Positions 1 to 62,327 of a stretch of DNA of 64,000 nucleotides are shown here, one piece after another (position 1 is the stretch's first letter; each line of letters begins with the position of its first letter). Position numbers and translations under genes: made by a program. This DNA is from Hericium rajendrae (taxonomy: Eukaryota > Basidiomycota > Agaricomycetes > Russulales > Hericiaceae). Under the pieces are notes generated by a model. The model did not search any database and was not told the DNA's origin. It saw only the letters and a program-made list of their open reading frames with translations. Location: contig CM065878.1 of NCBI GenBank assembly GCA_033439255.1, positions 1,240,001 to 1,304,000 of the forward strand, given 5' to 3'.

Positions 1-3000
1 GCAGCGAGAAAAGGTTGACCGAGACGAAGGATGTTCTCATCTGCAGCTCGAGGTGAACTCTCATAATCTCAGCTTCGCCGAGTCTGGACTCACGATGCTT
101 GCCACTGGAGAGAGAATTGACAGTGTAAAGTCTGTACTGACCCTAGTCAGTAATGAGTCAATATCTAGACAATGTGGAAAAGCGAACGAAGGAGGGTAAT
201 AATGGAACCCACTTGAGAGGTCTTGGCATAAGTGAGAGTGAGCAAATACGCTGCCAGGTATAACTAAACAGCGACTGGTCAGTTGTATCATCCGCGAATA
301 AGCTGTAGAAACCAACGCACGATAAACATGACAATCTGATACCCTGCGGCAGCAGCAAAGGCAGCCAGAGGCGATGCCGTCGCGAGTGACACACAGTACG
401 AGAAAAGGGCACCAACAATCCCATAGAGGACTAAGATGAACCACTGCCATTGTCATGAGTGAAATGTCGGCTTGATGGACGGAAAAGACCCACGAAGAAG
501 CCGAGGCCGTGGAACTGATTTGAAACCGCAGCGAACATGATGACGATAATAGTGGATAAAAAGACAACAAACATAGAATCGAAAAGGAGATGCCCGACCC
601 ATAAACCGACGGGGTTGGACAAGCCGTTTGACAACTGCATAGCCTGCACGGAGGTGCGGCGTTCCTGCGAGATGTACAACGCGAAGAACGCTGGATATAC
701 GGCCTACAAAAAGAAAATGCAGTCAGTGAACCGCGCGGACGTGGCCATGCCTGGAGATACGCACCATAGCTGTGCCGAAGAAGGCGATCCATTTCAATGC
801 GACGAGCGTACCGGCATCTACAGGCGGGAAGTTCTCGTAATTCGCTAGGATGAGGCTCGGTCCTGGCGCTGTATTGCCTGTGCTGTTCAGTGCATGACTG
901 TACAGGATATTGGAAGCCAGATTGAGCAGAATAGGTCCATTGATCCCTGGGGAAGTCGCTTCCCATGCAACCAAAGCTTCATTTGTCTGCAAGTCCATGG
1001 AGATACCACCCAAGGATAACTCGTGGAAGTTCTGCTGTATAGTGTGAACGAAGGTGTCATTATCTGGTATATTGCGGATATGCAAAGCAGAACTGTTGCC
1101 GAGGGCCGATGTGATGTTAGGCGGCGTCACAAGAAGCTCTTCTCCCAGAATCAACCCGAGAAAATTACTCGGAGACGCAGGGAGATACAGCGGCATCTGC
1201 GTCGAGTTGCGGAACGTTGTCGTGCAAGATTGTGATCTACCGGAAATGAAAAACAGAGGGATGCAAGATCCAGCGATGGCCATGATGACAAGTAGAAGTG
1301 GCATTAACCAGCTGCGCCATGCGATGTAGTAATGCTTCTGGAAGATGATAAAGGACTGAAGGAGGGGGGCCATCTTTTGTCCTGTGGTTAGTTGAACAGC
1401 AGAGGGTATTTTGCCGTCCGAAGGCATGAGGGCGCGATTCATCTCTTTGTCAGTCCTGGATGAAGAGCTAAGTTGAGATTCAGAGTCCTTGTTCATGAGT
1501 TTCAAGAAGATGTCCTCCATAGTTGTACCTTGTATGTCGTAGGAGACAATACCATAGGTGTTGCTCTCCTGATCGAGAAGCTGAAGCACACGCTCCACTG
1601 TCTGTGCATCTTTCGTTCGTAAGTGGTATGATATTTGCGTTGGCGATGACGAGGATGTATATGTGGATGGCGCAAGCGCACGGATGCTTTCAAGTAAGCT
1701 GTCTGGTGAGAATTCGAGATCAACCTTCTTCTCCACCTTGACCTCCTCGAACATGACATGGACTGTGTATCCTTCTCCAAGATTGGATTTAAGAGAGACA
1801 GGAGAGCCATTGGCCACTAGCTTTTCAGGAGCGGCAAGAATAGCTATATTGTCAGCCAAAAGATCAGCCTCATCAAGAAACTACATACAACACCCTGTCA
1901 GAAATGTCAGTATGCGACACGAAAGATCTCACGTGAGTAGTGAAGATGACCATCCTGTCATGTCAGGCTGACGTCAACGTTCTCCATAATGCACGGCGGG
2001 ACAACGGATCTACGCCAGACATGCATTCATCCACAAGGACGACTTGGGCACTCGTGTTAGCACAGGAGGACACTTTGCAAAGAATAGCACCCACTCTTCG
2101 AACCACCAACAAACCCAATCGCCAACTGCAGTTTCCTCTTCTGCCCTCCCGACAAGGTATTTGCATTCTCATGGGTCTTCTTCTCCAAATCACAATCCCG
2201 CAGCAGCTGCTCTAGATCATCATCTCCAACCAGCACATTTTTTGAATGCTTGATTGCCTTCCAAACGCGCAGCATCTGGTAGCACGTCAGCTCCGGGAAC
2301 AGCACGTTCTTCTGCAGGACGATACCGATGGTGCCACGTGGCGGGTGGGCAACGCCACCTTCGAATGTGACAGAACCAGACGTATGACCAAGGAGGCCTG
2401 CTATGATCGAGAGAGCGGTCGATTTTCCGGCTCTGAATCATACCACCAGTCAGCACATGGAACAGAGGCAGGATATACCACTGACCCATTTGATCCGAGA
2501 AGAACGAAGATCCCAAACTTGGGTATGTCAAACGAGAGATCCGAGATTGCTGTAACGACGCCGTGCGAGCGACGGAAGAACGAAGGGTCGAACATCTTCT
2601 GTAAGTTGTGCACCGAGATCGCGGTGTCGGGAGACATATCTGTAGCTGGCTGATTTATGCTGAGCATCTCCCTGCATCTCCAGAAGAGCCAAGATCGACC
2701 GCTTGACGGTTCGCGTGCATCATACAACCTTCTCTCCCAGAGCACGGCAAGCCATGGCCAGAGAAATATGTCGATCTGCAGTTCATGATAAGTGCTAGGA
2801 GATATTGAACGCGAGACATAGACTGACTATTCCCGCAATCAGAATGGGCAGCAATCGCATCCCGCTATCCGGATCTGCGTCCAGCACATTGGTCGGCATC
2901 TGGCGGTTCTCGAACCCAGCAATCGTCCGGATCGTGAAGATATAGTATCCCGGTGGGAATATCACGGAAAATATGAACGCGGTCCCAGAGCCCACCGCCC

Positions 3001-3788
3001 CCATGACCAGCGCAATGATCGTGAACACGATCGCAAGAAACGTCGACGCTACAGCTGCGAGCTGCGGACTTTTCTCGAAGGGCATAGCGACGAAGAAGGA
3101 CCAGCTCGCGAGGGAGAGCCCGAGGATGAGATGCACCACAAAGATAAGTCCTGCGGAGGACGCGCTGAATATGCGCACATGCCATAGGAGGGAAACGATG
3201 ATCCATGCGGGAAGGTATGCGAGTGAGATGCTCACATGCCATGAGAGTATGCGTGCCGAGTCGATGAGACCCATCACTTTGAGGTGGCTCGTGAGCAGGT
3301 TTGCCCGCTCGCCCATGAAGGAGCCTGGGAGCTGATACGCGATCCCGATGTAGCAAATGAACAAGGCCAATACGAGTAGAGTTCGGAGGCCGCAAATATA
3401 ACCTAGAAAGGATCTATCAAACATTGAAACAACGGACAGAAGGTCAAGACTGACTGAGGCGGATATCTGTGTTTTGCATCTCATTAGTTTCCTGGTTAAA
3501 TGGCCACTCCAAGGGTGTTGGCACTTGCTGGCCTGTTCTTAGAGATATGAAGGCCTTCCGAAATGTCATGTCAATGCCCAAGATGCTAAAATTCGAGATG
3601 TACCTCATCGAGCGCCCACTGCAACGGAAGGATGCGCTTCTCGTAGTCGCTATTATGCTTTGGCGAATCAATATGGAACAAACCTCCATCTGCGCTGATG
3701 GTATAATTTATGGGAAGCACTTCGCTAGCATCTGGAAAAACGGTTTTTCGGTTGATAGCCGAGGTCTTGTTATAGTAACCGCTGCCAG
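1..3788 (-). pseudogene. ABCA-type ABC transporter body, interrupted by a stop codon
   Basis: Reads right to left and continues past the left edge. Removing introns of about 40-65 nt gives one continuous ABC subfamily A protein: extracellular part (ADGGLFHIDSPKH, near 3690), membrane spans (3400-2800), then the first ATP-binding domain with Walker A GSNGAGKST (split by an intron, 2420-2500), signature LSGGQKRK (about 2130) and Walker B IVLVDECMSG (about 2020). The ADNIAILAAPEKL stretch follows (1859 leftwards), then the second membrane domain. The second ATPase domain lies outside the window. One codon breaks the frame: TGA at 1965-1963, where the family has arginine after ALWRTLTSA. All flanking sequence is clean, so the lesion is recent or a base error. 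The N-terminal pieces lie beyond large insertions at 7263-7554 and 12445-12519. The family moves lipids or other hydrophobic compounds across membranes; the substrate here is unknown. Confidence 0.85.
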
Positions 3789-3974
3789 CTACAAATAGAA
3801 GACTTCTGAACTATGATTGCTAATGATTAGATATTGATGGAAGCATCTTGGTATGTAATACGCAACCCAGCTACAGTAGCATCTATAGCAGTCATATTTC
3901 TGAGGAAGAAATCAAGTCATATATTCAAAATAAAGCTACAAATTATATTATATTATGACTCTACTTTACAAGGT

Positions 3975-5155
3975 AATAGTTGGGGGAGACAACGCGGGTG
4001 CGGGGGAGACGACACGGGTGCACAGGAGATGGCAAGGGTGCACGGGAGACAGCAAGGGCGTGCGGGAGACGGCAAGAGCACGTGGGAGGCGATGCAGACA
4101 TGTGCGAGATGGCGGGAGGCATGTGGGAGGCGGTGCTAGTGCGCGGGAGACGGTGCCAGTGTGCACGAGGAAGACGGCACCGACGTGAGGGGAAGACGAT
4201 GCCGACGTGTGGGGAAGATGATGCCGATGTGCAAGAGGTGACGCAGGCGAGTGGGAGATGGCAGGGGTGCGCAGAAGGCAGCAGGGGGTGCACAGGAGGT
4301 GGCGCGGACGCGCGGGAGATGGCAGAGGGTGTGCGGGAGGCAGCACGGATGCATGGGAAACGGCGCAGATGCGAACGAGGCGACACAGGCACGGGGAAGA
4401 TGGCGCCAGCGTGCAGGAGACAGGAGAGGCGTGCGAGAGGCGACACGGACACGTGGGAGACGACAGGGAGTGCGCGGGAGGCAGCACGGATGCGCGAGAG
4501 ATGGCGCGGGAGATGGTGCAGGCACGCACGAGGCGATGCAGGCATGCACGAGGCAATGCAGGCACAAGGAAGATGGCGCCAGCGCGTAGGAGACGGGAGG
4601 GGTGCGCAGGAGACAGAAGGGCACGCGGGAGGCGGCGCGGACATACGGGAGGCGGCAGGGGGTGCATGGGAGGCGGCACGGATGCACGGGAGATGGCACA
4701 GGCGTGCAGGAGACAGCGCGGGTGCGGGGAAGATGGCGCCAGCGCGCAGAAGATGAGAGAGGCGCGCAGGAGACGGGAGGGGGCGCAGGAGATGGGAGCA
4801 GTGCACGCGAGTCGGCGCGGACAGGCGGGAGATGGCAGGGGCTGCACGGGAGTCGGCGCAGACACGCGGGAGATGGCAGGGGCTGCGCGGGAGTCGGTGT
4901 GGGCGCGCGGGAGTCGGCGCAGGTACGCGGGAGTCGGCGCGGGTGTGCGGGAGACGGCGCGGGCGCATGGGAGATGGCGCGGGCGCATGGGAGACAGCGC
5001 GGGAGATGGCGCGGGCATGCAGGAGACAGCGCGGGCACGCGGGAGATGGCGCAGGTGCGCACCAGGCGACGCAGGCACGGAGAAGATGGCGCTGGCGCGT
5101 AGGAGACGGGAGGGGCACGCGGGAGACAGCATGGATGCGCGGGATGCGCAGAGTA
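3975..5155 (-). repeat. GC-rich imperfect minisatellite, left arm
   Basis: About 1.2 kb of degenerate repeats with a period near 21 nt (seven codons), G-rich on the plus strand and C-rich on the minus strand; the minus-strand unit resembles CCCGCGCCGACTCC. Because the C-rich strand almost never forms TAA, TAG or TGA, all three minus frames stay open for 300-425 codons. None of these frames shows a domain, so they are best read as a composition effect. The array follows directly after the hairpin and intron module at 5161-5238, as in the other copies. Confidence 0.8.
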
Positions 5156-5160
5156 AAAAC

Positions 5161-5238
5161 GAGAGTATCGCCTGTATTCGAACAGGCGATACTCTCTGAA
5201 TTAGTGGTGAACAAGGTCAATAAGATGGATTTACTCAC
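5161..5238 (-). other. Hairpin plus intron-like module, copy A
   Basis: Minus strand: donor GTGAGT at 5238, branch-like CTAAT, acceptor CAG ending at 5196, giving a 43-nt potential intron. The acceptor is followed at once by a perfect hairpin (5161-5196): 15-nt stem beginning GAGAGTATCGCC, 6-nt loop. A second potential intron lies just upstream on the same strand (5328-5285, 44 nt, GTATGT to TTGCAG), leaving a 46-nt exon between them. After the hairpin the C-rich minisatellite begins. The splice signals are strong for this fungus; whether a transcript exists is unknown. Confidence 0.7.
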
Positions 5239-5657
5239 TGTGTAGCCTCTACAGCTCTTCCCTGTGGTGAATCTGGCTTAACACCTGCAAAAGATATGTG
5301 AGTTATCCATTGACGGAGGGAAACATACCTTGCAGGTTTGAAAAAACAGCCGTGGGACATGTTTGGCTGCAGCCAAACGTTTCCCACGCACCCCCCCGCG
5401 TTTTTTTTTGGTTCAACTTCACAAGTCGAAACGTGCGCAGGCACGGCCCGTCGCGCGCCGTGCTGTTTTATTGCCCATATATGGTCATTAAAACAGCTCG
5501 GGCCGCGCGGCTCCGTGTGCTCAACTTGTGCGCGACTCGACTTCGTTTGCCACGTCGTCTTCCTTCCACCCACAGTGACCCACCCCTTCCTCACTGTGGA
5601 AATTTTATTGTAAGTATCTTCCAATCTTTTTTGATACTTCTTGGGCTGCGAATAAAG
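5239..5657. other. Head-to-head core with palindromes, possible bidirectional promoter
   Basis: The two modules A (minus) and B (plus) point away from this core. It holds a 38-nt imperfect palindrome centred on GCTGCAGC (5351-5388, two mismatched pairs), a palindrome centred on CATATATG (stem 5462-5470 with 5489-5497), and a longer diffuse inverted symmetry spanning about 5420-5540. The symmetric layout suggests one region driving transcripts both ways. No TATA box stands out. The promoter role is inference. Confidence 0.45.
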
Positions 5658-5733
5658 GTGAGTACCTACGGTTTTGCTGTAGCTTCGCTGTCTAATCAAG
5701 AGAGTATCGCTCGCATTGTCGAGCGATACTCTC
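5658..5733 (+). other. Hairpin plus intron-like module, copy B
   Basis: Plus strand: donor GTGAGT at 5658, branch-like TCTAAT, acceptor CAAG ending at 5700, giving a 43-nt potential intron, the same length as copy A. A perfect hairpin follows at 5700-5733 with a 14-nt stem beginning GAGAGTATCGCTCG and a 6-nt loop. The C-rich minisatellite starts about 10 nt further on. Copies A and B are in opposite orientation around the core. Confidence 0.7.
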
Positions 5734-5744
5734 ATTTTTGTACA

Positions 5745-6790
5745 CTTTGCAATGCCCCCACCGACTCCTGCGCACCCACACCGCCTCCTGCGTGCTACGT
5801 CGCCACCCGCGCACCTGCGCCGCCACCCGATCGCCTCCATCGACTCGCTCACATCTGTGAGACGCCAGCGCCAACTCGCGCGCGCCTCTTGCCAACTCGC
5901 GCGCACCCTCGCCGATGCCCCTGCACTCCCATGCGCCCGCGCCGACTCCTATGCACCCACAACGATTCTTGCGCACCTACGTCGACTCCCGCGGGTCCCC
6001 GCCGACTCGATCATGCCGGCGCCACCTCCCGCCTCTCGCCTTCCCAAACTGCCTCCTGCGCGCTCCCGCACCACATCCAGCGCGCCTCTGCCGCGTCCAG
6101 CGCGGCTGTGCCTACGCCTGTGCACCCGCGCCGGTCTACTGCATGCCCGCGCAGACTCGGACATCCCCGCGCGGACTCATGTGTACTATCTGCCGACTTC
6201 TGCATCCCTGCGCCGATGCCAGCACGCCCGCGACACCTCCCATGTACCCGCGCCTTCCGTGCCCGCGCCTTCCGTGCCCGCACGCCGACTTACATTCGTG
6301 CACGGATTTCTGCGTGCCTGCACTGCCTCCTGCTGCCACCGCCTGCACACCCATGCTGCCTCCAGCATGGCCATGCCGATGTCTGCGTGCGCGCGCAGAC
6401 TCGCACACCTCCGCATGGACTCGCACATGCCCCCTTGCGATTTCTTCAGTCCCCGCGCTGATGCCTGCACGTCCGCGCCGCTGCCAGCATGCCTCCATGA
6501 CGACTTGCATGTACCCGCGCCGTCTCGTGCGCCCCGCGCCACCTCCTGCTGCCCCTGCCGCTGCCTGCACGCCTGCACCATCTCCAGCGCACCCGCGCTG
6601 GCTATGACGCGTCCACACCGACTCCTGCATGCTGGTGCTGACTCCCGCATGCTAGTGCTGATACCCATGCAGCCCCGCCGATGTGCGTGTGCCCTTGCTG
6701 ACCCTTGCAATGTGCCCCTGCCACCTCCCGCACATGCCCACCAATCTCTGCATGTCCCCCACTGACCGCTGCATGCCCATGTTGCCTCCT
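5745..6790 (+). repeat. GC-rich imperfect minisatellite, right arm
   Basis: About 1 kb, C-rich on the plus strand, with degenerate units of about 20-21 nt resembling GCGCCGACTCCTGCGCACCC. It mirrors the left arm in inverted orientation. Long plus-strand frames exist (up to 349-387 codons) but consist only of Arg, Pro, Ala, Ser, His and Cys low-complexity sequence, so I do not call a protein. Confidence 0.8.
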
Positions 6791-6796
6791 GTAGTG

Positions 6797-6834
6797 CGTG
6801 GGAACTGTTTTGCTGCAGCAAAACAGTTCCCACG
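6797..6834. repeat. Perfect 38-nt palindrome
   Basis: Both halves match exactly around the centre GCTGCAGC, with the outer ends CGTGGG and CCCACG. A second palindrome of the same length, core and ends lies at 5351-5388 with two mismatches. The pair brackets core plus right arm, so it may mark a unit of the element. Confidence 0.85.
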
Positions 6835-7262
6835 AGGCATTGATGCTACAGGTGCAGAAGGATATGGAGCAGGAGATCCATCTGTGTAATATAGCTCTGC
6901 TGCTGACTGTGTGTTACTAATAGTGTACAAAATGTAAATAGCCAAAAATATAATATTTTGCATGATATATTCTTGGAGATCTGATATGAGAGACTAATGG
7001 ATTATAGCAAACTATATTGTACTGAATCTCACATACTGCAGTATAGCCTTATAGTAGCTACAGTAGCTGCACAATATAGCTACAGTAGATACTGACATCT
7101 ACAGACACTATAGATCACTACAGACTGACTACAGGCTGATACAGACCGCTACATGTACTTGTAATAAAGACCCACCTATCAACAGATGCTACAGAAAATA
7201 TATAATCTATTATAGCTATTGTAGACCATATTTTCTACTGTAGGCTAAAGTAGTACAGACAC

Positions 7263-7554
7263 TTTTTCCAGATGGCCTATTGTTCATGGGTGGTATAGAA
7301 TTAAACGAGACAGTGGCAAAGCATTTGGAGAAGAGATTGAAATTCTGCGGACATGCCGATGGTATATCGGTGGGAGACACGACCTTCCGCACAGCGTGAA
7401 GTTGTCTTGAAGAAAATCCCCATGTCACATGCAACATGATATCGGCAGGATTAGGGAAACTAGAGCCATTGGTGCCATCTGCCCATATGAGAGCAAGCGA
7501 CCCATCAAACTCTTGTGTCAAGTTGAAGACAGGAACGGGTGATCCAATGCCATA
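7263..7554 (-). pseudogene. ABCA-type transporter, N-terminal extracellular exon
   Basis: Starts after an acceptor CAG with YGIGSPVPVFNL and continues with EFDGSLALIWADG, TWGFSSRQLHAVRK and IPSACPQNFNLFSKCFATV, then FNSIPP. This is the first extracellular loop found in fungal ABCA-like proteins. It fits in order between the N-terminal exon (12445-12519) and the body (up to 3788). The frame is open throughout. The exon can end before a GT at 7262 in the phase needed by the next exon. Upstream, only about 26 nt separate it from the end of the outer hAT-like element. Confidence 0.8.
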
Positions 7555-8458
7555 CTGACATTTTTAACATCTTGTCAAATTAGGGTTCGACACGAGTCAG
7601 AGTCACCCGCAGGTCAATACAGGTATACCCGCGAAATTTACCTGCGGGTTCCTGACCCACAGATCCGGATCACCTGGTGGCTGAGACTCACCCGGATCCA
7701 GGTCAAGCTTTTTCTAAAATGCACAAACCCGCGAGTGACCCGCAGGTGACCTGTGGTCCAGTATTTATTCATCAATGGTGTTTTATGTACTACTCAAGTA
7801 TGTACATCTACAAAAGATACATGAACTTTCCAATTTATGTGTGTAGTGTATTCAACCCTCTTCGAGTTACCGCCGCCACCATATTTACTTACTACTGCCT
7901 GCTGCCAGTGCTTCTGCGCATGGTCATTGAGGCTCACCGCTATACATGTGCATGCGCTAACGGGGCGTGAGCATAGGTGTACCCTTCGCAGGGATGCGAA
8001 GCCAACGCTGTGCTGTTGAGGGGCATGTGGAGGGTGAGGCGGACACGGGCATGGTATGGAAGTTGGCACATGCAGCCTCCACGCCGCTGAGTCTTACGAG
8101 TCGTCGCTCGCAACATGAGCGGGGGATAGGCGTGAGGCATCCATGCATCATGTGGTGTATGTGGCAGCGCGCACATCTGTTGCATGCATAAACGTACATG
8201 TGGGGACGGGGCTAGGCAGTCGGGGGCACATTCGCGTGCCTGCACTGGCGAGGCATGAACGGTAGAGATGTGAGCATGCGGTGTTCAAGGTGAGACACGA
8301 ATGCATTGATTTGTGACATACGTGTGGGCACCTTAATGTGCGATACCCGCGCTGGATGGGGCACGGAGGCATTGATGATGGGGCGCGGATGGGGCGTGAG
8401 CGGCAGACATATGTGCATGTGTGCACGCTGGCGACAAGTGCACACTGTCAGTATGCAG

Positions 8459-10247
8459 TAGGGATGGACACGAGTCAGAGTCACCTGCGGGTCAATACAG
8501 GTATACCTGTGAAATTTACCCACGGGTTCCTGACCCGCAGATCCGGATCACTCGGTGGCACAAACCCGTCCGGGTCCAGGTCAAAGTGTTACTGAAATAT
8601 GTTGACCCACGAGTTACCCGCGAGTAACCTGTTGTATTTATTTAATAGTTGTATATTATCATTATAGTATGTACACTATATACATGAACTCGATGATTCA
8701 TAATTCTACTGTCGCACACTGCCTTCTTATGAATTACGGATGTGACAGAGCCGTGCGCAAGGCGCGCACGAAGCGTCAAAGGGAGCGGGTGACGGAACCG
8801 CGCGCGAGGTGGCCAAGGGCGGCAGATGAGGGGGAGGCATGTGAATGGGGGGCGCGCGGTGCAGCAAAGGGCGGGACATGCACGCAAGGCGTGCAGTGGG
8901 TGGCGCCGCACCGTGCGCGCCGTGAATGAGCGAGGTCTTCAGCAGATGCATGAGGTGTCGGGGGCGGCGAGAGGCGTGCGGGGTCGTGTGCGACGTGGCA
9001 GACCCATCGCCAGAGAGAGGTGCTGGGAACATGCGAGGGGCGTGCGCGAGGCCATGGGCCCGTGCACCATGCGCGCGGGGCGTGCACAACGCCGCAGGCC
9101 TGCAGGCGAGGCAAGTGAGGGACATGCGACGGTCCCCGGGCTGTTGCGTGCCCGTGCGAGAGACGTTCGACTGCCGCGGGCCCGTACGCGATGCAGGGTG
9201 CATGCGGGACCGCGGGCAACGGGCACGAACGACGGACGAGCCCCATTGCCATGGCAACGGGACTCTACCGTGGGTGCCCGCACGTCGTTGACGACGCACA
9301 GGCGGCGCGGAACGACGTGGCACGACGGCCATGCGTGGCCGTGCGCGCGAAAGGGGAGCAGGGGGATGCAGGGATGTCGTCATGCGTGGGGTGTCAGTGC
9401 CGCGCCCGGGCAGCTCGATGAGTTGGCGATGTTACGCGATGCGAGAGGGGGCGATAGGGACAAGGGGGTTGATGTTGGACGGGCGATGGTGGGAGGGCGG
9501 GGACAAACAAACGAGTGTCGTTCATTTTCGAACGACACTCTGAGTTAGCAAAAAGAAACACGAAAAAAATGTTTTTTTTTTTACTCACCTGATGCCCCTC
9601 CAGCTATAATCCTCTATACAACCCGTCTTGACCATCGATAGGCGTCAAGAACGAGGCGAGGCGAGAGAGCAGAGATAGAGAGAGTAAAGGAAGGAGAAGG
9701 AAGAATAAGCAAGTGCAGTCTCGACGTGCTTCAGCCACCGAACGCGCTTCAGCCACCGAACGAGCGAAGCTACGTTCCTCAAGCTTCAACAAATCAGATA
9801 AAGTGGTATAAAATAAGAGAAAAAAGGTGCAATAATAGATAGTACTTGAGATTTACATGAATGAGAAAATGACGTATTTACTGTACTCTGCATCCCTGAG
9901 CAACAACATCACCTTAGTGAAGTCTGCTGCCCACAAGCTGCCCAGTCTCTGATGCAGCTCTCGGCAGCTCCCGGCAGCCACGGTTCTCCTGCAGCGCACT
10001 CGTCGCCGCTGGCGCTGTTCTACAGCCGTTTTCACTGCACCGGTGCATTGAGTTCTGTCACTGAAGAATAGCAGGATCACTACATAACTGACCTGCGAGT
10101 GACCCGTGATGTCACAGGTACCTGACCCACGGCTCCGGATCACCCGGTGGCTGAAACCCACGCGGATCCAGGTCAGGCGTCGTGCTATGTTGAATACCCG
10201 CGGGTTCGGATCCGGGTCACCCGCGAGTGCACTCGTGTCCATCCCTA
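8459..10247. mobile_element. Inner hAT-like non-autonomous element with perfect 8-bp target duplication
   Basis: Ends are the 17-bp inverted repeat TAGGGATGGACACGAGT, two bases different from the outer element. It is flanked by the direct repeat GTATGCAG at 8451-8458 and 10248-10255, a perfect 8-bp target duplication, the hallmark of the hAT superfamily. It is 1,789 bp long, sits inside the outer element, and shares its plan: subterminal motif-rich ends, an AT-rich zone, a G-rich zone (8750-9500), a hairpin-intron module (copy C) and a TATA-like sequence on the minus strand near 9815. It encodes no transposase, so it must be moved in trans. Confidence 0.88.
9513..9588 (-). other. Hairpin plus intron-like module, copy C
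   Basis: Minus strand: donor GTGAGT at 9588, branch-like GCTAAC, acceptor CAG ending at 9540 (49 nt). The hairpin at 9513-9540 is perfect, with an 11-nt stem beginning GAGTGTCGTTC and a 6-nt loop. C-rich sequence follows on the minus strand. Upstream on the same strand is a 62-codon frame (9792-9604) and a TATA-like TTTATACC near 9815, which could be a first exon and promoter. Confidence 0.7.
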
Positions 10248-10660
10248 GTATGCAGAGCCATGCGCGGGCAATTGCTCGTTGTTGAAGGGCATGTGGGCGG
10301 TGAGAGGAACACGGGGGCAAGTGTCGAAATTGACGCATGCGGTCCCGCGCGGGTGATAAACAGAAGGCGATCGATCTCGTTGCTACAGCAATGAGGCTCG
10401 ACCATTCTTGTTGCGGGCCATCCATGCACTATGCCTGGACCATGCGTACACTTAGGGTGGTGAGCGGGAGATAGAACGTCGTGCGCACGAGCCCGGTTCG
10501 TGGACGATCGGGGCGGGGCACAGGTTTGACGCATTGATGAGGGCATTGTGGGCACTGGGGGGGGAGTATTGAAAGCAGAGGCACGGGCAGTGCGCAAGAG
10601 GTGATGGGGCTGTCAGAGGACCGTGAGGTGTCATCAATGTCGAAAAACAATGAAAAGCGC

Positions 10661-10734
10661 GAGTCTCGCTCGTTATTACGAGCGAGACTCTGATATTAGC
10701 ATAGTAGAATGAAGGTAAAGACTTCACCACTCAC
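10661..10734 (-). other. Hairpin plus intron-like module, copy D
   Basis: Minus strand: donor GTGAGT at 10734, branch-like GCTAAT, acceptor CAG ending at 10690 (45 nt). The perfect hairpin at 10661-10690 has a 12-nt stem beginning GAGTCTCGCTCG and a 6-nt loop. It belongs to the outer hAT-like element and occupies the same relative place as copy C in the inner one. Confidence 0.7.
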
Positions 10735-11057
10735 CTGAAGCACCGACCCATTGCTCATGACTTCATTCCTGCGCGTCCTCAAGCTTGGTAGCCTAGCGCA
10801 GGCCAATTATGAAAAGTGAGAAAGTCATGGTGGCAGGGCGATGAGGAAAGTGAGACTGACCTGCAGGTAACCCGTGGCGTCGCAGGTACCTGACCTGCAG
10901 CTCTGGATCACCCGGTGGCGCGAACCTGTCCGGATCCAGGTCCGACCTCGGGCCAGGCCAATGACCCGCGGGTTCGGATCCGAGTCACCCGCGAGTGCAC
11001 TCGTGTCGAACCCTAGCTCAAGGTCACCGATTTATTATTATTATCTGCCAGTGACAT

Positions 11058-20466: not shown

Positions 20467-23400
20467 CTAACGACGTTGACGACGGCAATCACGATTTCTG
20501 CGATTGAACCAAATGAATGAATGGATGTTGTGTTGGGTAAAACTATATAAAACAGCAGCGGTGAGGAGAACGCGACGGGTAACGACAGTAGCATTTACAC
20601 TTTGGATATTAGGCCTTTGGGGCATAGAGGTCCATGAACCGCGCCGATCGACGGACAACGAAAGCAAATGAGAGTGCGAAGGTGAGGTCAGTGATATATA
20701 ATATAGCTCCAAGTCAAATGCATAGACGATAAACGAGAAGGAATCAGATGCGAACGAGGGACGCAACGACAGAGAATCATATAAAAAGGAACAGGGGAAT
20801 TCAGACCTGGCAATGCGGACGTGTTTAACGAGGGGAGGAAAAGAGGGAGAACATCTTTCGGCGCCCTCCTTGTACTTCTTCAGCTTCTTGTTCTTCTGCC
20901 TGTCTGCTTCGTCAAAGCCGGACGCGGTGGCCGACGCAGGAGCTTTCACGGTCTCTACGACATCCGTGTCACGCGCATCGTCATTCATTGATGTATCCGA
21001 GGACGAATTCGGACTGCCGATCGAGGTGGCCGATTCCTTGGACTTGAGCGACATCGAAGGTGACATCGCGAGCGCGTTGCGGGTCGAAGGATGCAGACTC
21101 GAGGCCGTCGATGAAAGCGTCGCCGACGTCGAGTGGTTCAACGTCTTGGCGGACCGCGAGGACAACGAGGGCGACGACTTGGGCTGGAGGAACTGCTTGT
21201 GGTGTTTCCTGAAGGGCAGCCCGGGTGTACGGCCACGGCGCTTCTCCACGGGGTGGGGGAACTTGAGTTCGATACTGGACTGGCCAAGTCGGACGCCTGC
21301 GACATGGCCGAGACGGAGCGGTTCGGCGTGGAGCCCTTGCGGAAGACGGCAAGCCTGTAGCGATCGACGACGCCCCGTGCAAAGAGGCTCGTGCCCTTTG
21401 TGCCGTTGCGGTCCTCGCCACGGTCCTCGCCATCGGCCTCGATGAAGTCCCAGTCCTCGTCCTCGTCTTCGCGCTCAGTTGGCGCTTCGTCGTCATCGTT
21501 GGTATCGGAGAGGTCGCGATCCAGAGCAGGAATGCCTGACTTCTCTCTGCGGTTGCGGGTCGCGCGAGCAGGTCTATTGGGTGCCTTCGTCGTGACGACC
21601 GTCTTCTTCGGGTCCTTGCGTTTCTCTTCTGCGATACTGCGCGCAGCGGCAGCGGCGGCCGTTTCTGCGACTGTAGTGGGCGACTTGGGCGTTTGCGGCA
21701 GCTTCTTGTCGGAGGAGCACGTGCACTGGTATCGATCCTCACCGACGGTTTCGCTGCGTCCTCGGGAACTGCAGGGGCCACTGTCTCTGCCTCTGCGACG
21801 GGCTCCTCGTCTCTCTCCGCCGGCGTCTCTGGCAGAGGAGGAAGGCGAGCTTCAGGTGTCTTCGGCTCTGGCGTCTGTTCCTGTGATATGCCCTCGTCTG
21901 CCTTCTTCGCAACAGCTTCGCCGTTGAGCTCGGCGAGCATGCTTTTAGTCGCGTCGTCCTCTTCGTCCTCTGCCTCAGAGGACGACTCTTCTGCCTCGTC
22001 ATCCTCGTCCAAGATGACGGAGTGCCGGCCCTTGAACGAATATCCGTCGAACACGTCTACGGACTCATCCTCTACGGGCGGGGGTGTACAGACGAGCTGC
22101 GCGACTGCGACGGCGTCGTGACTGAGTCCTCACCGTCTGTGCGGTCCGTATCGGTCTGATCACGCTCTTGGTCCGTGTCCATACCGTCCGCATCATCGTT
22201 CTCGTCGTTGATGACAGGCTCCATGTCGAGGAACGTTTCGTCGAAGTTTTGGGTATCACTTGCATTTGAAGGGTCGATGGGTGGGATGTATGGGGCTGTA
22301 ATAGACGCCAGAGCCTGAGAAGATGAAACTTTTCTGAAGATGAACGAACTCACGTATATAGCGCTTGTAATACACGTGAGACCAGTCTCTGCAAATACAA
22401 AGTGTTCAACAAACGGCAGAAGGAACACTGCTGAATACACACATCATGGAGAAATACGGGTGCTTCTTTATTCGCGGCTCGCTGATTCTGAGGGCAGGAT
22501 TACGTTGAAGCAACTGGTATTTTCATGAGACCAAAAGACACATGCATCGCAGATGTGAAAACGTACTCCGCGGATCAAACTCTTCGTGTCTTGATCCATT
22601 GCTCTGTCATCTGGGAACTGCAGCTCATCCTGCAGAACTCTGACATACATGTCAGAGTGGTTGTCTGCCCAGAATGGTGTCTAGAAGCAGTGGGAATTGG
22701 TCTACTATTGTGAACAGGAACATCGAAAAACTCACAATCCCAGTCAACATCTCGTACAGCATCGTGCCAAAGCTCCACCAGTCTACCTCATAGCTATAAG
22801 GAAGGCCCTGAATGACCTCTGGCGCGAGGTATTCCGCCGTCCCACAGAACGTAGTCGTCGAATCCGTAGAACGGGGCGGCAACGGATGCGCCAGATCCTG
22901 CGTGGGGCTCGCCCCATCTGCAGACATCCAATATGGCTGGCGCGCACCGGCGGAGTTGCCGTTCGGCGTCGCGGGTGCTGTGATGGCATTGCTGCGGCGC
23001 GGAAATTCCTTCGACAGACCAAAGTCGGTGAGGACGATGTGCCCGTCCGCAGCGATGAGGATGTTTTCGGGCTTCAGGTCGCGGTAGATGACGCCGGCAT
23101 TGTGCAGACCCTCGACACCTTCGACGATCTCAGCTGCGTAGAAGCGGGCGCGATCGCGGCCGAGGCGGCCCCAGCGTGCGAGCTGCGTCGCAAGGTCTCC
23201 ACCTGGATGGAAATCCTGCGATACAAAACTATGCATGAGCTTCATCAGGACCGACTAAAAACGGGCAGACGCACCATGACCAAGAATAAGTTGTCCTTAT
23301 CATGGAAACTCCACCAAAGCTTGACCACGAACGGGTCGCTGCCCTCGGCCGCCATGCGTTTCAGCACGGCCTGCTCCGTGAGCGTGTGCTGCAGCTCCTG

Positions 23401-25285
23401 GTGCGCAAGCACATGGCGCTTCGTGATTGCCTTGAGCGCATACAGGTCCTGCGAATTCTTGTGCCGCACGAGCAGCACCTTGCCCGCACAGCCCTTCCCG
23501 AGCACGCGCAGCATCTCGAAGTCGTGCACCTGCACCTTGCGCTGCGCCTGCGACGGGCGGCGCCGCAGCTCGCGGTTCGGGTCCATCGATTTGGAGCGCT
23601 TGCTCTTGCGCGACGACGACGCGGCCTGCGACGTGTTGATCGACGAGTCGTCTTCCGTCTGCGAGGCAGACGCGGAGGCGGACGTCTGGCTGATCGCGCC
23701 ATCGCGCTTCGAGGGCGCGAACAGGCGCGATATGCGCGCGGCCTTGTCCGGGTCTGCAGACTGGGAGCGTGGGATCCGCGACGCGGGGGACTCGCCGTTC
23801 GCCGCGACGGGCGTGGACGGCGTATTGACGTCTTCGTCCTCGGCAACAGTGCCATTTGGCGCCGCGCCTTCCACCGTCTTGTCTTCATCGGTAGGGGCGG
23901 GGTCAATGATAGACGCCTTCGGCGACCGCGGCGTCTCCGGGCGATCCTCCGTCGATGCCGCCTCGTCCTCTTCGTTGACGTGCTCCGTGAACCGGCTGTG
24001 CCGTCTGCTCAGTCCCGGCATCTCATCCAGCGCGCTGTCAGTCTCTCTCGGCATCCGAACGTCCACCGTGCTCGGCGACACGACGTGCGCAGCGAGATCC
24101 GACCGCACGCGCTTGATCGCGCGTTCGACACGCACGCTCTCGAGGTCATCTGTCCGCACGCGTACAAAGCGCTTCCATGGGCGCGCCTGCCGCAGCATCT
24201 GGTCGTTCGACAGCGTCGTCAGGTACGCCGCTAGGCCTGTCAGCATCGGGTTGGTGGACGTCGGCGCGGCCTCGACTTCCGGACCGAACGAGGAGAACGG
24301 GTCCATCAACTCTTGCGCCGGCGACGTGATTGGCGTGGGTGCGACGCTGCTCGCGGCGGTCGAGTTTGTCGACGGGCGCGAAGCATGGCGCAGAGTGGAC
24401 GACTTGGTGGAAGGGGAGGCCAACCGGGACAGTGTGTTCAGGAAGGCAGATTTGCGCTTCGCGGGCGGCGGGAGTGCATTGGTATCTATGGGAAGGACTG
24501 GAAATTTGACGTTGGGATATGCATCGCGCAGCTTGTGGTGCAGTTCGACGACCTCGTGGGTGGTGCGGCTAAGTGTTAGGTTGTGGGTAGGCGCTGAAAG
24601 AAGTAATGTCAGTCGGGTCGCAACGGGGAATGGCAAGACTCGAGCAGGCAACCCCACAGAAAATTGGATACAACGAAAGGAAACGAGATTGCCCGGATAA
24701 GGCGAATACAAAATAGAGTGTTGGGGCGAAATGGATTCGAACCAACAACGCTTAGAAAGAGAACGGATACAAGAAAAGAACATCGGGTCATATCCATATC
24801 GATCCCTTGCGAGCTCGGGATGGCAGCAATACCATTCTTCAAGATGACAAAAGCAAAGAGATAAAGTAGTAGAGACGAGACTCACTTTTCACATATAGGC
24901 TATACGAGAGAGTATCGCCCGGGTTCTCAGCAACGCTAACCGTCCATGGCCCATCCTGAGCGTCCATCCTAAGGACAACTCTCCGCGAGGGTCGTGCCTG
25001 CTGTTGGTCGGGATCCTGCTCCTTCATCTTGGTAGGCGACGGCGGGTCCGTGTTGACGACAACGGTCGATATTGGTTCAAAGAAAGAGGCGTCGGCAATG
25101 CTCTGGCTGTCTACCTTGCGTGTCTTGCGCTGCGAGCTTCTGTTGTAGCTGCCGACGAGATCGACGCTGCGACGGATCAGTGAGGGCTGGGTATCTCCCG
25201 AAAGGATGCCTTTGAAGGTGAGGGCGGAAGGGTAGTGGGAAAGGGAGTGTTGCTGCGGATGGTGACCACGACGGACGCTAGGCAT
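20467..25285 (-). CDS. PX-domain AGC-family serine/threonine protein kinase
   Basis: Start taken at 25285 (MPSVRRGHHPQQHSLSHYP). A PX (phosphoinositide-binding) region spans a roughly 300-nt intron: DGPWTVSVAENPGDTLSYSL then HNLTLSRTTHEVVELHHKL (24590-24500). After a disordered stretch comes an AGC kinase: glycine loop VLGKGCAGKVLLV, lysine in LYALKAI, catalytic VIYRDLKPENI, TDFGLSKE, then about 55 extra residues before the activation segment TTTFCGTAEYLAPEV, and VDWWSFGTMLYEMLTG. The AGC tail (YKRYIPPYIPPIDPS, NFDETFLDMEP) ends near 22200. A further 400-450 acidic and basic residues follow, with DWDFIEADGE (about 21450) and LFARGVVDRYRLAVF. PX plus AGC kinase recalls SGK3/Ypk-type kinases that act on endosomes or plasma membrane. 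The 3' end needs a 38-nt intron near 21720 and a frame change near 21290, so the last 250 residues are provisional. Confidence 0.8.
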
Positions 25286-56828: not shown

Positions 56829-57341
56829 AATGCGAGACGTTTGCGGGGTGTGTTGGTGCTGAGTGGTGGCTTGCGCATTATTGTTAGGTTCCTCATGTCT
56901 TTTTCTAGTCTTATCCTCCGCTATGAACCCCATGCAATGATTAAGCAGAGCATGACCACTTGTAGCTTTTAGCGATCTTTCATGAGCTTTGCATCTGAGG
57001 AACCTTCATTGCGAGAGTGCTAGTGCTTGTCTGAGACCTACAATCGTGCCCACGGAGTCCAACGGGCTTTCGCGGTAGTCACAACTACTGTGTCATGCAC
57101 ACCATTCAAGACTGATACTTGGCAATCCATCCGAACTCACCACAAATTTTGCGATACGAATTTATACCGGTAGGTTCGGACCGGCCCTATCATCGGGGAA
57201 ACCTCTGGAAACTGTACCATATAACGAAGCGGCGGAATCCCTGAATACCAGAATACTTCATCTTACCCCATAATCCCCCTCCTTCAAAGGTTTGACAAGG
57301 TCGAGTTGGACCAATCACACCGTCCTGATATTCTCCGCAAG
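56829..57341. other. Intergenic, no gene seen
   Basis: 3' region of L21 and upstream region of the gluconokinase gene. A small hairpin-like CCGGTAGGTTCGGACCGG lies near 57168. No RNA gene recognised. Confidence 0.4.
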
Positions 57342-58184
57342 ATGGTGGCGCCCAAAGTCACTGCAGACATCAGTCCTGCACCTACACCAGCGGCTGAGGA
57401 CCTCGCAATGAACAGCATCGGAGGCGAACGAGCAACAGATCCAGTTGTTTCGAACGGCCATGCAGCAGAGGTCTCGCCGTACATGATTGTGGTAATGGTG
57501 CGTCGACGTTTGCCATGCACAAGCTTTAATCGCGAAATTGACGTCGAATGTGAGCAGGGCGTCTCCGGCAGCGGCAAATCCACACTAGGCCAAGCACTTG
57601 CTGCAAGCCTGTCTTTGCCCTTCTTGGACGGCGATGATCTACACCCGCCCTCGAACATCGAGAAGATGAGCCGTGGCGAGCCACTGACGGATGCGGACCG
57701 CGCGCCGTGGCTCATGCACATCCGGGAGGAGGGTTCGAGCACTGTTAGGGAGAAGCAAAGCAAGGGTGTGGTAGTAGCGTGCTCTGCACTGAAGAGGCGG
57801 TATCGCGAAGTGCTGAGGGGAGAACGAGTCGGGCTGGATGATAACAAGGGGCGGGAAGAGAGCGAGGTGGTGCAGCGGGTACGAGAGACTGAACCTGGCG
57901 CTGGCAGTAGTGAAGGATCAACTGCCAGTGGTCATCTCGAACGTCCGTCCGATTTGCGGACGTTCTTCGTGCATCCGCATGGGACGAAGGAGGTCCTGCT
58001 TTCGAGGATGGAGAGCAGAAAGGGTCACTTCTTCAAGGCGGCGATGCTGGACACGCAGCTTGCGACCCTTGAAGTCCCAGCGCTGAGCGGGGAGGACAGC
58101 ATTGTGCAGGTTCATTTAGAGCGCGATACCCAAGGGCAGGTTGAGGAGGCGAGGGCAGGATTGTCGAAGTGGATAATTCTGTAG
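57342..58184 (+). CDS. Gluconokinase (GntK family)
   Basis: Start at the ATG at 57342 (MVAPKVTADISPAPTPAAED); the frame extends upstream only to a TTG. An extra N-terminal stretch of about 50 residues precedes YMIVVM, an intron (57499-57560), and the P-loop GVSGSGKSTLGQALA. Then LPFLDGDDLHPPSNIEKM, LTDADRAPWLMHIRE, VVVACSALKRRYREVLRG, then FFVHPHGTKEVLLSRMESR, GHFFKAAMLDTQLATLEVP. These are the Walker A, the DGDDxHP substrate motif and the ACSALKRxYR motif of gluconate kinases, which make 6-phosphogluconate from gluconate and ATP for the pentose phosphate pathway. A 45-residue acidic insert (DDNKGREESEVVQRV…) sits before the FFVHP strand. Cytosolic. Confidence 0.92.
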   Translation: MVAPKVTADISPAPTPAAEDLAMNSIGGERATDPVVSNGHAAEVSPYMIVVMVRRRLPCTSFNREIDVECEQGVSGSGKSTLGQALAASLSLPFLDGDDLHPPSNIEKMSRGEPLTDADRAPWLMHIREEGSSTVREKQSKGVVVACSALKRRYREVLRGERVGLDDNKGREESEVVQRVRETEPGAGSSEGSTASGHLERPSDLRTFFVHPHGTKEVLLSRMESRKGHFFKAAMLDTQLATLEVPALSGEDSIVQVHLERDTQGQVEEARAGLSKWIIL

Positions 58185-59588: not shown

Positions 59589-62142
59589 CTATGGTATGCA
59601 ACTTGCAGCAGTCCTCGATAGCAGTTCGGGCCGTGGTTGATGGAGACTTGTATCTATTCTTAAGCGGGTGGATTTTTAGGTTCAGGGATGAGTCCCATCT
59701 GCATATTATATTTACAAATGGTTCTATTTGCATAATGCCTTAAGGTCAATACGAGTAAATTCCACCACTGAATGCGTGCAAGCAAGCCACGACTGGCCCC
59801 TACATCCATGCACAATTGTCGGTTTCCAGGGTGTGCGACTGTAGGACAACCAGTGAGAACCAAACTAAGGATATCAGGATGTATCAACGAACCCCCTGAG
59901 CGATGCCGCACGCTTTCTTGTCCTTGCGGACGAATAGCCTCTTCGACCACGACCTTCCGCTGCTTTTGGTGCTCCTCGCGGGGGAATCCCAGGCCCTATC
60001 ATCCTCATCGAGCATCTCGGCCTGAAGGAACGCAAGGAAATGAATGACGGCATCCCAGACGTCAGATTGTGACGTCCCGGAGAAAAGAGAATAAGCAACA
60101 GACCTCGAAAGCGGGGCCGGCGTAATTCGTCTGCTCCTGGAAGAACGACGATCGGTGACATCGCCTCATGCCCTGACGCACAATTTCTCCGACCCTATCA
60201 CTGTTTTCCCGCGCCCATGCGCGGTCGTCTGCAGTGATGCGATAGTCGGCGTCCTGCTGACGCTGTCTATTAGCGCGCTGTAAAGGTATATAAGGACGAA
60301 GCTAGCTTGCCTCTGCCTCGTTCACCTCGGCGAGGCTGCCATAGCTGGGCGGTGGGTCGACTGGGGTGTCGATTGCGAACTCCATCTAAGGTATACAGGT
60401 AAGTCATTGAGGACATTGTCGAGGGCAGGTGGGATCGCACCAATGTGCTACATTCCGATTCTGTTGGCGAGGGGATCACTAAAGTCCTCTGGTCCCAAGC
60501 AACGCTGGATCGCTGTAGGTGACAGGTTGTCATTAGTGTAAAAGATACAAAATATCGACGGAAATACAACGAACAATTTTGAGGGCCGATCTCACCCTAG
60601 AGCACATCGTCGAATTTTTGATTGCTTTCGAGGATTGGTCGGCGCCGCCGATAGCTGATCGTGTGCTATGAGAAACCTTTGACACCAAACAGCTGCGCGT
60701 TAGCGTTGCACAAAGCAGTATCAATGCGGCGCTCAACGCGCTCACCATGCTTAGGCAGTACGTCTGCAGCGTGTCGGGGATCTGTCGGGTGGATAAGGTG
60801 CAAGCTCGGGACCTGGAGCAAGGCCTCCAGCCCGCACAAGCTCATATACGACTGGGGGAGGTCACGGGCCGATGCACACGACCAGCACCCCTGGCCTGCT
60901 CCAGGCATAAGCATGCTGGCACATTGGCAGATCCGCGTGCAGCGCGGTGTCCATGGATTCAGAACGCTCAGCACGCAGACTTACATAGACAGGGACAAGG
61001 TTGAATGGCCGCGAACGGTATTGAGAAGCACAAGGCACTTCGCCGGTGCTACGTCAGGAGATTCCTCGTGGCCATCTCGCCTGAATTCGCGCTGGAAGAC
61101 CCTATGATCGGCGCCGGCGAGGTTTCTCCCTACATACGCAGCGGTGCACCTGGCCTGGGGACGGGAAACGATGCCAGCGCTGTGGTAGATAGCGATAGCG
61201 CCGATTTCTCCGCTTCGCCCAAGGACGTGGAAAGGGTACATATGCACGATGAAGCCGGTCCAAATTGACGAGAAAAGCACAAGCGGGCCCGGTGCGGTCT
61301 TGCAGCTCTACCGTTCCGCCATGTTCTGTCAACGACCCACCCTCGACCGTTGAACGTGAGATGTACAGATTGCCATATTGCGACACGGCGAGCGATAGCA
61401 ATCCTGTTCGTCCTAGAATAGTCCTGTCAATAGAGATGGCCATCGCTCTGAGCTGCGATGAATGGTCACAGGAATAGAACAGGGCAACTGACCGCCTGCC
61501 TCCTTGTCCTCGGGACCGTCATCAGTCATCGATATTCCGAGGTTCGACCCCAAGCATAAGGTATTGACCGTGGAAACTGAAAAGATTGCCTGAATAGTCT
61601 GTAAGCATCAGGACGCCTATACGAGTAACAGTCGTGCGGTTAGCGAGGTCGACGTCTCGATAAAGGACGACGTACGTCTGTGTTGCCTGGGTAAATAAAG
61701 CGCGATCTGCTGTGTTCGACGGCATAATTAGCACTGGACGCAGCTCGAGCCAGTCTCGAATATGATAGCAAGAATAGATGGTCTCCCACAGCCATCTCAT
61801 ACCTGAAAGAGTTGGCTCGTCTACAACGGCACTCCAGCACTACGAACATTCGTTGGAAGTCGATTCAACGGGATGATGGCCATCATAGAAGCATGAATGG
61901 GGCATATCGACAAGCAAACATGATGCTTAGAATCCTGCATAATCTCGGACTTCATCCAAGTGTATTTCAGTGATGTGTCATCAAAATTCTCTCGTATTAC
62001 AAATGCATCATATCTCGACAAAGCAATCTATGAGAAGGAAACAGGAAACCAAAAGATCATTCCATCCATTCATTTGCACATCCCAAGCATGCATCGACAG
62101 ATACACGTCAACAGGAGGCGCAAAAGAAGAGAAAGTATGATC
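59589..62142. other. 2.5 kb without a supportable gene
   Basis: Two minus-strand stretches look mildly protein-like: 61800-61522 (TQATQTYVVLYRDVDLANRT, TRIGVLMLTDYSGNLFSFHG) and 61443-61230 (NLYISRSTVEGGSLTEHGG). They could be exons of a multi-span membrane protein, but I cannot join them with confidence. 59660-60660 and 60650-61100 hold only short frames. No repeats or RNA genes noticed apart from U2 at the right end. Confidence 0.35.
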
Positions 62143-62327
62143 CCCCGACGACACGGGCCGGTAGTGCAGCGGCGAGGTCATCGCGTCCCCGGGTTGCAAG
62201 CAGAGCCCAGGGAACAGGGGCGGCAAAAATTAGATAACCAATAATGGGGGCAGTGCCCCCATAATAGTGGTTAAACTATTAAGAACAGATACTACACTTG
62301 ATCTAAGCCAAAAGGCCAGAGTGGTGA
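62143..62327 (-). ncRNA. U2 spliceosomal snRNA
   Basis: On the minus strand the 5' part reads TCTGGCCTTTTGGCTTAGAT followed by CAAGTGTAGTATCTGTTCTT, the stem I and branch-site recognition region of U2. The branch-pairing GTAGTA is intact. Next come a short stem IIa-like part, a GC hairpin (GGGGGCA/TGCCCCC) and TAATTTTTGCC, an Sm-site-like sequence. Stem-loops follow, the last with a CTGCACTACCGG loop region like U2 stem IV. About 185 nt, the expected size. The 5' end is set from alignment to the usual U2 start and the 3' end is approximate. A TATA box lies 25-32 nt upstream. Confidence 0.92.

Follow-up and report, generated by a model that had tools for sequence, protein, structure and literature searches.

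The question raised by this locus is what a set of splicing signals, followed directly by a hairpin, is doing in several copies within the mobile DNA of a fungus. The window analysed here, 64,000 nucleotides of contig CM065878.1 of Hericium rajendrae (positions 1,240,001 to 1,304,000; assembly GCA_033439255.1), contains four such modules, A to D, each with a GTGAGT donor, a CTAAY branch motif and a stem-loop. Our tentative reading of the sequence, possible rather than probable, is that they represent a transposon-borne RNA element which recruits the spliceosome strongly and denies it a nearby 3' splice site, the outcome being cleavage by the first splicing step only or a stalled spliceosome. 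The modules are:

5161..5238, minus strand: module A, donor GTGAGT at 5238-5233, branch CTAAT at 5204-5200, hairpin of 15 bp at 5196-5161
5658..5733, plus strand: module B, donor at 5658-5663, branch CTAAT at 5692-5696, hairpin of 14 bp at 5700-5733
9513..9588, minus strand: module C, donor at 9588-9583, branch CTAAC at 9548-9544, hairpin of 11 bp at 9540-9513
10661..10734, minus strand: module D, donor at 10734-10729, branch CTAAT at 10699-10695, hairpin of 12-13 bp at 10690-10661

All four were found where the original prediction had placed them, B on the plus strand and A, C and D on the minus strand, with A and B oriented away from each other. The pattern GTGAGT...CTAAY...AGAG picks out exactly these four modules in the 64 kb (five overlapping matches versus a mean of 0.03 in shuffled sequence, none of 100 shuffles reaching five). 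RNA folding gave stems and loops of 15 bp and 6 nt for A, 14 bp and 6 nt for B, 11 bp and 6 nt for C and 13 bp and 4 nt for D, with z-scores of -6.5, -6.1, -4.6 and -4.6, respectively. The predicted stems of 15, 14, 11 and 12 nt, always with a loop of 6 nt, were reproduced for A, B and C, whereas D folds as 13/4 rather than 12/6. Genome-wide the notion of a constant loop fails: in 79 of 80 modules the gap between the 12-nt arms spans 2-12 nt, with 4 or 5 nt the usual values.

In the genome searched (46.8 Mb, 19 contigs; the window is C1:1240001-1304000 and L-numbers denote the loci compared), the hairpin pattern GAGTNTCGYTCG-N3-8-CGAGCGANACTC has 199 and 202 matches on the two strands, the reversed control none; because the pattern is palindromic, these amount to about 200 places. 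A strict donor followed after 30-55 nt by the left arm occurs at 285 places (reversed control 0-1), and donor plus right arm gave 314 matches (control 2), a few with the donor on the wrong side. The further copies that the original prediction had proposed to collect therefore exist in their hundreds. Two routes reached the same layout without use of the donor. Among the matches listed on C1-C3, 46 of 51 distinct hairpins found without it carry a correctly placed strict GTRAGT donor; the other five have GTGCGT (one), GTAAGC (one), ATGAGT (two) or an otherwise altered donor (one). A search with the conserved block upstream of the module scored 40 of 299 candidates, of which 21 sit on other contigs and the 19 on C1-C4, one being the query's own locus, were inspected: a module lies behind all 19, two of which escaped the regular expression and were identified visually (L152 with a shortened hairpin, L154 with one mismatch). 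These two donor-free routes agree. The donor form GTRNGY is absent in only two of 43 distinct modules from loci found by similarity. Counting themselves, module A has relatives at 20 places (some partial, 79-100% identity), C at 10, two of which are halves of one interrupted copy, and D at 3. A single exact spelling of the hairpin with a 4-nt loop had no match in viral or prokaryotic contigs. The earlier statement that no element of this layout has been described agrees with the literature searched, most subscription papers being out of reach, in which we found no such transposon cassette.

The order of parts was taken from 12 aligned families. It starts with the conserved block, in which 10 of the 12 have TTATATA and one has TTATGTA, C having neither. 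U-rich stretches follow and, in most families, a small hairpin of the TTCGGTGGCTGAAGCACCGAA type, then a CT-rich tract and a short exon end, which in most has GAGGG...AG. Next come GTRAGTAA, an interior that is A-rich and then T-rich, TACTAAY and, after 3-5 nt, the hairpin, behind which comes a C-rich tract measuring between several hundred nt and about 1 kb. In the window, the parts surrounding the modules are:

9589..9981, minus strand: upstream part of C, with exon end with AG, CT-rich tract and block common to other families
3981..5160, minus strand: C-rich, AG-poor tract with degenerate repeats behind hairpin A
5734..6796, plus strand: C-rich, AG-poor tract behind hairpin B

A T-rich run lies about 200 nt after the TTATATA box, and both are kept in most of the 12 families; an RNA polymerase III transcript between them is conceivable.

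Donor and branch site were predicted to be conserved, and they are. A set of 80 modules was chosen by donor and left arm from about 100 positions listed, after removal of the two window modules among them, of rows whose donor lay on the wrong side, of close copies and of part of the later positions. Donor and hairpin lie 43-50 nt apart in this set, and AG directly precedes the donor in 75 of the 80. The donor reads GTRAGTAA in 60 of 75 families, and the branch RCTAAY in 57 and TACTAAY in 36 of them; the hairpin begins 5 nt after the branch motif in 59 of 70 modules, 4 nt after it in one and 3 nt in ten. Host introns look different: among 66 motif-based candidates, which are not verified gene models, 60 have a CTGAY or TTGAY branch (about 22 expected by chance) and one has TACTAAY. 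The window also carries a U2 small nuclear RNA gene (62139-62327, minus strand; Rfam RF00004, 116 bits), which reads GTGTAGTA. U2 is the only Rfam match of the window at gathering scores, and two matches in L037, L051, L059 and L061 are both far below the gathering score; membership of the modules in a known Rfam family was rejected on these grounds.

Where would such an intron end? According to the original prediction an intron of 43-49 nt is spliced at a CAG or AAG beside the hairpin, which would then start exon 2. A nearby AG is indeed always present, and introns of Yarrowia have a comparable spacing between branch and AG. In modules A to D this AG lies 5-6 nt past the branch adenosine, at or within the foot of the stem. 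Host candidates from the window minus its repeat block (53 kb), however, show no excess of such short spacing (3-10 nt: 7 seen versus 11 expected), their excess being at 11-24 nt (45 versus 13). Nor is the type of AG constrained: among 74 non-redundant modules, the AG first met beyond the branch reads GAG in 28, AAG in 17, CAG in 16 and TAG in 9, the branch being unrecognised in 4, and a pyrimidine precedes it in just 25. Of the marks of a canonical short-intron acceptor, the modules thus have neither the host-like distance nor a consistent pyrimidine-AG, and AG is scarce further downstream. We regard this model as improbable.

The downstream scarcity is pronounced. In the 80 nt behind the hairpin AG occurs at 0.27 of expectation (74 families). 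With distance from the hairpin (31 families; the first two bins of 50 nt each, the final bin 700-1000 nt) the ratio is 0.25, 0.21, 0.41, 0.49, 0.68 and 0.70, compared with 1.13 in 30 C-rich 80-mers of the host, so that AG is four- to five-fold below expectation within 100 nt; GA stands at 1.36 and 0.97 in the first two bins. An AG exclusion zone past a strong branch site would be expected if a spliceosome acts where later AGs are harmful or used. Long open reading frames run through the C-rich tract in several frames. Since the one scanned (window 3961-5238) has no Pfam domain and TGA is not depleted (33 seen versus 20.6 expected at 0-100 nt behind the hairpin), they were taken as compositional and a protein-coding tract was rejected.

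We propose that the modules are one RNA-level cassette on several non-autonomous terminal inverted repeat (TIR) families, hAT-like and PlavakaB-like. A promoter-bearing upstream block would be transcribed toward the hairpin, and the transcript would present to the spliceosome a consensus-like donor, AG/GTRAGTAA, and a TACTAAY branch near the full complement of U2. The stem-loop, 3-5 nt past the branch motif, takes up the sole close AGs and is followed by the AG-depleted C-rich stretch. The first step of splicing might then proceed while exon joining is slow or fails, and the 5' exon would be let go or the complex would stall, much as in the first-step 3'-end formation of fungal telomerase RNA. 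For the transposon the gain could be a defined end for a short non-coding RNA, the avoidance of full-length transcripts or, in a basidiomycete that has Argonaute, a way into or around spliceosome-coupled RNA interference (RNAi). A more far-reaching version appears doubtful: that promoter, strong donor and branch and acceptor-denying hairpin form a spliceosome trap, a case of first-step-only splicing outside telomerase RNA, and that two unrelated superfamilies have it in common because it yields a defined non-coding RNA or steers RNAi.

Several points weigh against the proposed first-step-only element. Transcription, cleavage, failed exon joining and function are all things that we infer. The comparison of splice signals with the host covered branch motifs and branch-to-AG distances. 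RNA structure is scarcely conserved in the upstream block, where just two short helices emerged, and a conserved fold was rejected accordingly; immediately ahead of the donor, nothing resembling an Sm site was seen. Low values in the 80 nt behind the hairpin are found for GG (0.38), TA (0.41) and AA (0.52) too, and in the first 100 nt GG, at 0.09 versus 0.66 in the host control, is as rare as AG or rarer, so the AG shortage may in part be a general avoidance of adjacent purines. Furthermore, the first AG behind the hairpin is late rather than absent, at a median of 109 nt (29 families). In yeast ACT1 a 40-nt stem-loop placed between branch and acceptor did not prevent splicing (PMC7935899); a hairpin alone need not, therefore, block the second step, and the missing AG would matter more.

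This tolerance makes a serious rival, and the main one, of a conventional intron whose 3' splice site lies far downstream, in which a hairpin between branch and acceptor hides early AGs and a free AG in the C-rich tract is used. Such an intron would account for the AG exclusion zone as well as for the hairpin spacing. Yet the position of the first AG ranges from 11 to 540 nt with no common acceptor context visible in 17 loci, the gaps between AGs stay long past the first one (medians of 109, 67 and 41 nt in the 29 families), and a conserved downstream exon was not noticed. We consider it somewhat unlikely.

Known systems offer partial parallels to the first-step-only reading. The telomerase RNA TER1 of Schizosaccharomyces pombe releases its 5' exon after step one owing to a fully U2-complementary branch site and a long distance from branch to acceptor, and other fungi reach the same release by other means, Aspergillus with a donor AUA(A/C)GU whose A1 blocks step two (PMC4299874). 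The modules resemble TER1 in a strong branch and the lack of a close usable acceptor, and release after step one would be expected. The first TER1 feature has its counterpart in TACTAAY, present in 36 of 75 families and rare in host candidates; of the second there is something like it, with the caveat that at sequence level an AG lies 5-6 nt past the branch, at the stem foot. Unlike TER1, the modules sit on transposons in hundreds of copies and have a hairpin 3-5 nt past the branch motif, and neither a telomere template nor an Sm site was noticed beside their donor. The AG/ATGAGT donors next to perfect hairpins in L149 and L150 (L151 is altered, perhaps also to ATGAGT) recall the Aspergillus donor described there. 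Cryptococcus provides a second parallel: stalled spliceosomes can trigger production of small interfering RNAs, in spliceosome-coupled RNAi (SCANR; PMC6643885). The likeness would lie in basidiomycete transposon transcripts that stall spliceosomes, and in the Piwi-domain matches of the present genome (10, counted per exon); together with the Cryptococcus precedent these suggest that a role in RNAi may be possible. The difference is that stalling in Cryptococcus yields small interfering RNAs, while the modules combine a strong-looking donor and branch with a missing acceptor. Introners and introner-like elements likewise link mobile sequence to splice signals; the present carriers differ in that they are not introns themselves but hold the splice signals internally, and in that the hairpin is not what moves.

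Kannan et al. (2015) expect that more ways of uncoupling the splicing steps will emerge (PMC4299874). Should the module indeed separate the two steps, nature would have supplied an instance beyond telomerase RNA that is replicated many times over, its roughly 300 sequence variants offering a ready test set, and the module could link transposon success to spliceosome-coupled RNAi in basidiomycetes.

Concerning the maintenance of the hairpin as RNA, the evidence is mixed. The hairpin is retained across copies while its stem sequence varies, as had been predicted; the claim of compensatory changes held in part. In 13 aligned modules, related to each other, and 500 shuffles, 18 cells changed on both stem sides versus 6.6 +/- 2.1 shuffled, and the covariation score was 0.284 versus 0.156 shuffled, neither value being reached in any shuffle; slid partners scored at most 0.101. 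On the other side, two measures that are more robust to relatedness are unremarkable: the number of pairs with changes in both arms (6 versus 4.0 shuffled, reached by 38 of 500) and further pair types (9 versus 10.1, reached by 477 of 500). Since the rows are related, covariation beyond relatedness is not established. Departures from pairing were counted in both directions. Taking the left arm as fixed, the right arm is perfect in 59 of the 80 modules and lost in one; this armless module excluded, there are 18 G.U (8 internal, 10 in end pairs) versus 5 C.A, all internal. In the opposite direction, with the right arm as reference, 29 deviating rows selected visually from 100 listed contain 14 G.U, all internal, versus 22 A.C or C.A (5 internal, 17 at ends) and one G.G. 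Within the stem, in transcript sense, G.U-type departures thus number 22 versus 10 (left 14 versus 5, right 8 versus 5); over all pairs hardly any surplus is left (32 G.U versus 27 A.C/C.A), a further point against RNA. Given the relatedness of the copies and the action of CpG decay on either strand, the internal bias is suggestive at most.

Could the hairpin act as DNA, as a palindromic protein site or a cruciform perfected by template switching, with the splice signals an unrelated leader? Palindromes can stay perfect without RNA selection, and both the small strand preference over all pairs and the unexceptional relatedness-robust measures are in keeping with this. A gap between the arms that ranges over 2-12 nt, however, speaks more for RNA than for a rigid dyad in DNA, the hairpin keeps a spacing of 3-5 nt from the branch motif, and internal G.U-type departures prevail in transcript sense, relatedness being uncorrected in that count. 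We judge a DNA role to be unlikely.

The mobile nature of the surrounding DNA was borne out, the modules lying inside non-autonomous TIR elements. In the window these are, none with an assigned strand:

3729..7274: PlavakaB-like non-autonomous TIR element of 3546 bp with A and B back to back; ends CATCTGGAAAAA / TTTTTCCAGATG
8459..10247: hAT-like non-autonomous element of 1789 bp with C; TIR TAGGGATGGACACGAGT; 8-bp duplication GTATGCAG on both sides
7581..11015: hAT-like non-autonomous element with D; TIR TAGGGTTCGACACGAGT; split by element C

The TIRs of C and D read TAGGG(A/T)T(G/C)GACACGAGT. Target duplications of 8 bp flank C in the window, its copies L034, L035 and L036, and the D copies L029 (GCATGGCT) and L030 (CAGTTGAT), the flanks of the window copy of D being unmatched. 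By TIR and duplication, C and D are elements of the hAT pattern; what goes beyond hAT is the cassette, which the Plavaka-like elements carry too. Element C lies inserted in D: the uninterrupted D copy L029 corresponds to the site without the insert, and such a copy lies 1-2 kb to the left of the window.

For PlavakaB, the published description gives termini CATCA..TGATG and a duplication of 2 or 3 bp (PMC12730594). The L059 family (ends CATCAGATAAAT), with CATCA..TGATG, fits this, and the remaining families nearly do, the A+B element, L061 and L067 (ends CATCTGAGAAA in the latter two) having CATCT..AGATG. A 2-bp duplication is present in five of seven Plavaka-like elements examined (L047, L052, L058, L061, L067) and absent from L059 and the A+B element, whose window copy has no matching target duplication at its flanks; four of the seven are one family. 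The resemblance to PlavakaB, as far as described there (PMC12730594), thus consists in CATC..GATG ends and 2-bp duplications in most elements. Unlike it, the cassette carriers are short (2.6-3.5 kb) with no transposase seen inside, and the available part of the description does not mention an internal cassette. With hAT-like and PlavakaB-like carriers, the cassette is common to two transposon superfamilies. C and the Plavaka-like L061/L040 family also have the upstream block in common (67% over 737 bp, E 5e-44), which for C indicates common descent and not a look-alike; D has the donor-hairpin layout alone in the loci compared.

The TIR elements also bear on an alternative raised in the original prediction, a Helitron 3' end on the opposite strand (hairpin, then TTAG). 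TTAG or TCAG does follow the hairpin in many copies. A Helitron, however, should have its hairpin near a CTRR 3' terminus and neither TIRs nor a target duplication. The hairpins here are internal to TIR elements, the distance to the nearest end running from 325 bp for D to about 1.5 kb for B, most elements examined have 2-bp or 8-bp target duplications, and conservation continues through TTAG to the donor and past it. A Helitron end is extremely improbable and was rejected.

Transposase matches in the genome, counted per exon, comprise 172 for KDZ and 132 for Plavaka, numbers that together with the intron signals suggest a basidiomycete. By eye, among the modules listed on C1-C3, they are not regular neighbours, and the idea that the module serves autonomous elements as a 5' leader was rejected as a general reading. 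It may apply to single copies, near which lie a Plavaka locus surrounding a module (C3:1368106-1372509), the one locus among the matches listed within 5 kb of a listed module, and at least three KDZ matches 2-5 kb from a module (C1:5286729, C2:2868205, C3:2496652). L066 (C2:2530201-2540200), a candidate autonomous copy, proved instead to be an A+B element split by a long terminal repeat retrotransposon, with direct repeats at both ends.

Some minor observations may be added. Palindromes of 38 bp, of the CGTGGGAA...TTCCCACG type, at window positions 5351-5388 and 6797-6834 bracket module B and its tract within the A+B element, and in L002 a stretch resembling them comes after the C-rich tract. 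At L038/L039 (C12:1895064-1899023) about 3.9 kb is inserted into a C-type copy at the base of its hairpin, flanked on either side by CTCAGAG. Among the host genes of the window, 2795-3484 (minus strand) has a weak ABC-2 membrane match below cut-off, 23245-24885 (minus strand) encodes a protein kinase domain and 57225-58181 (plus strand) a shikimate-kinase-like P-loop.

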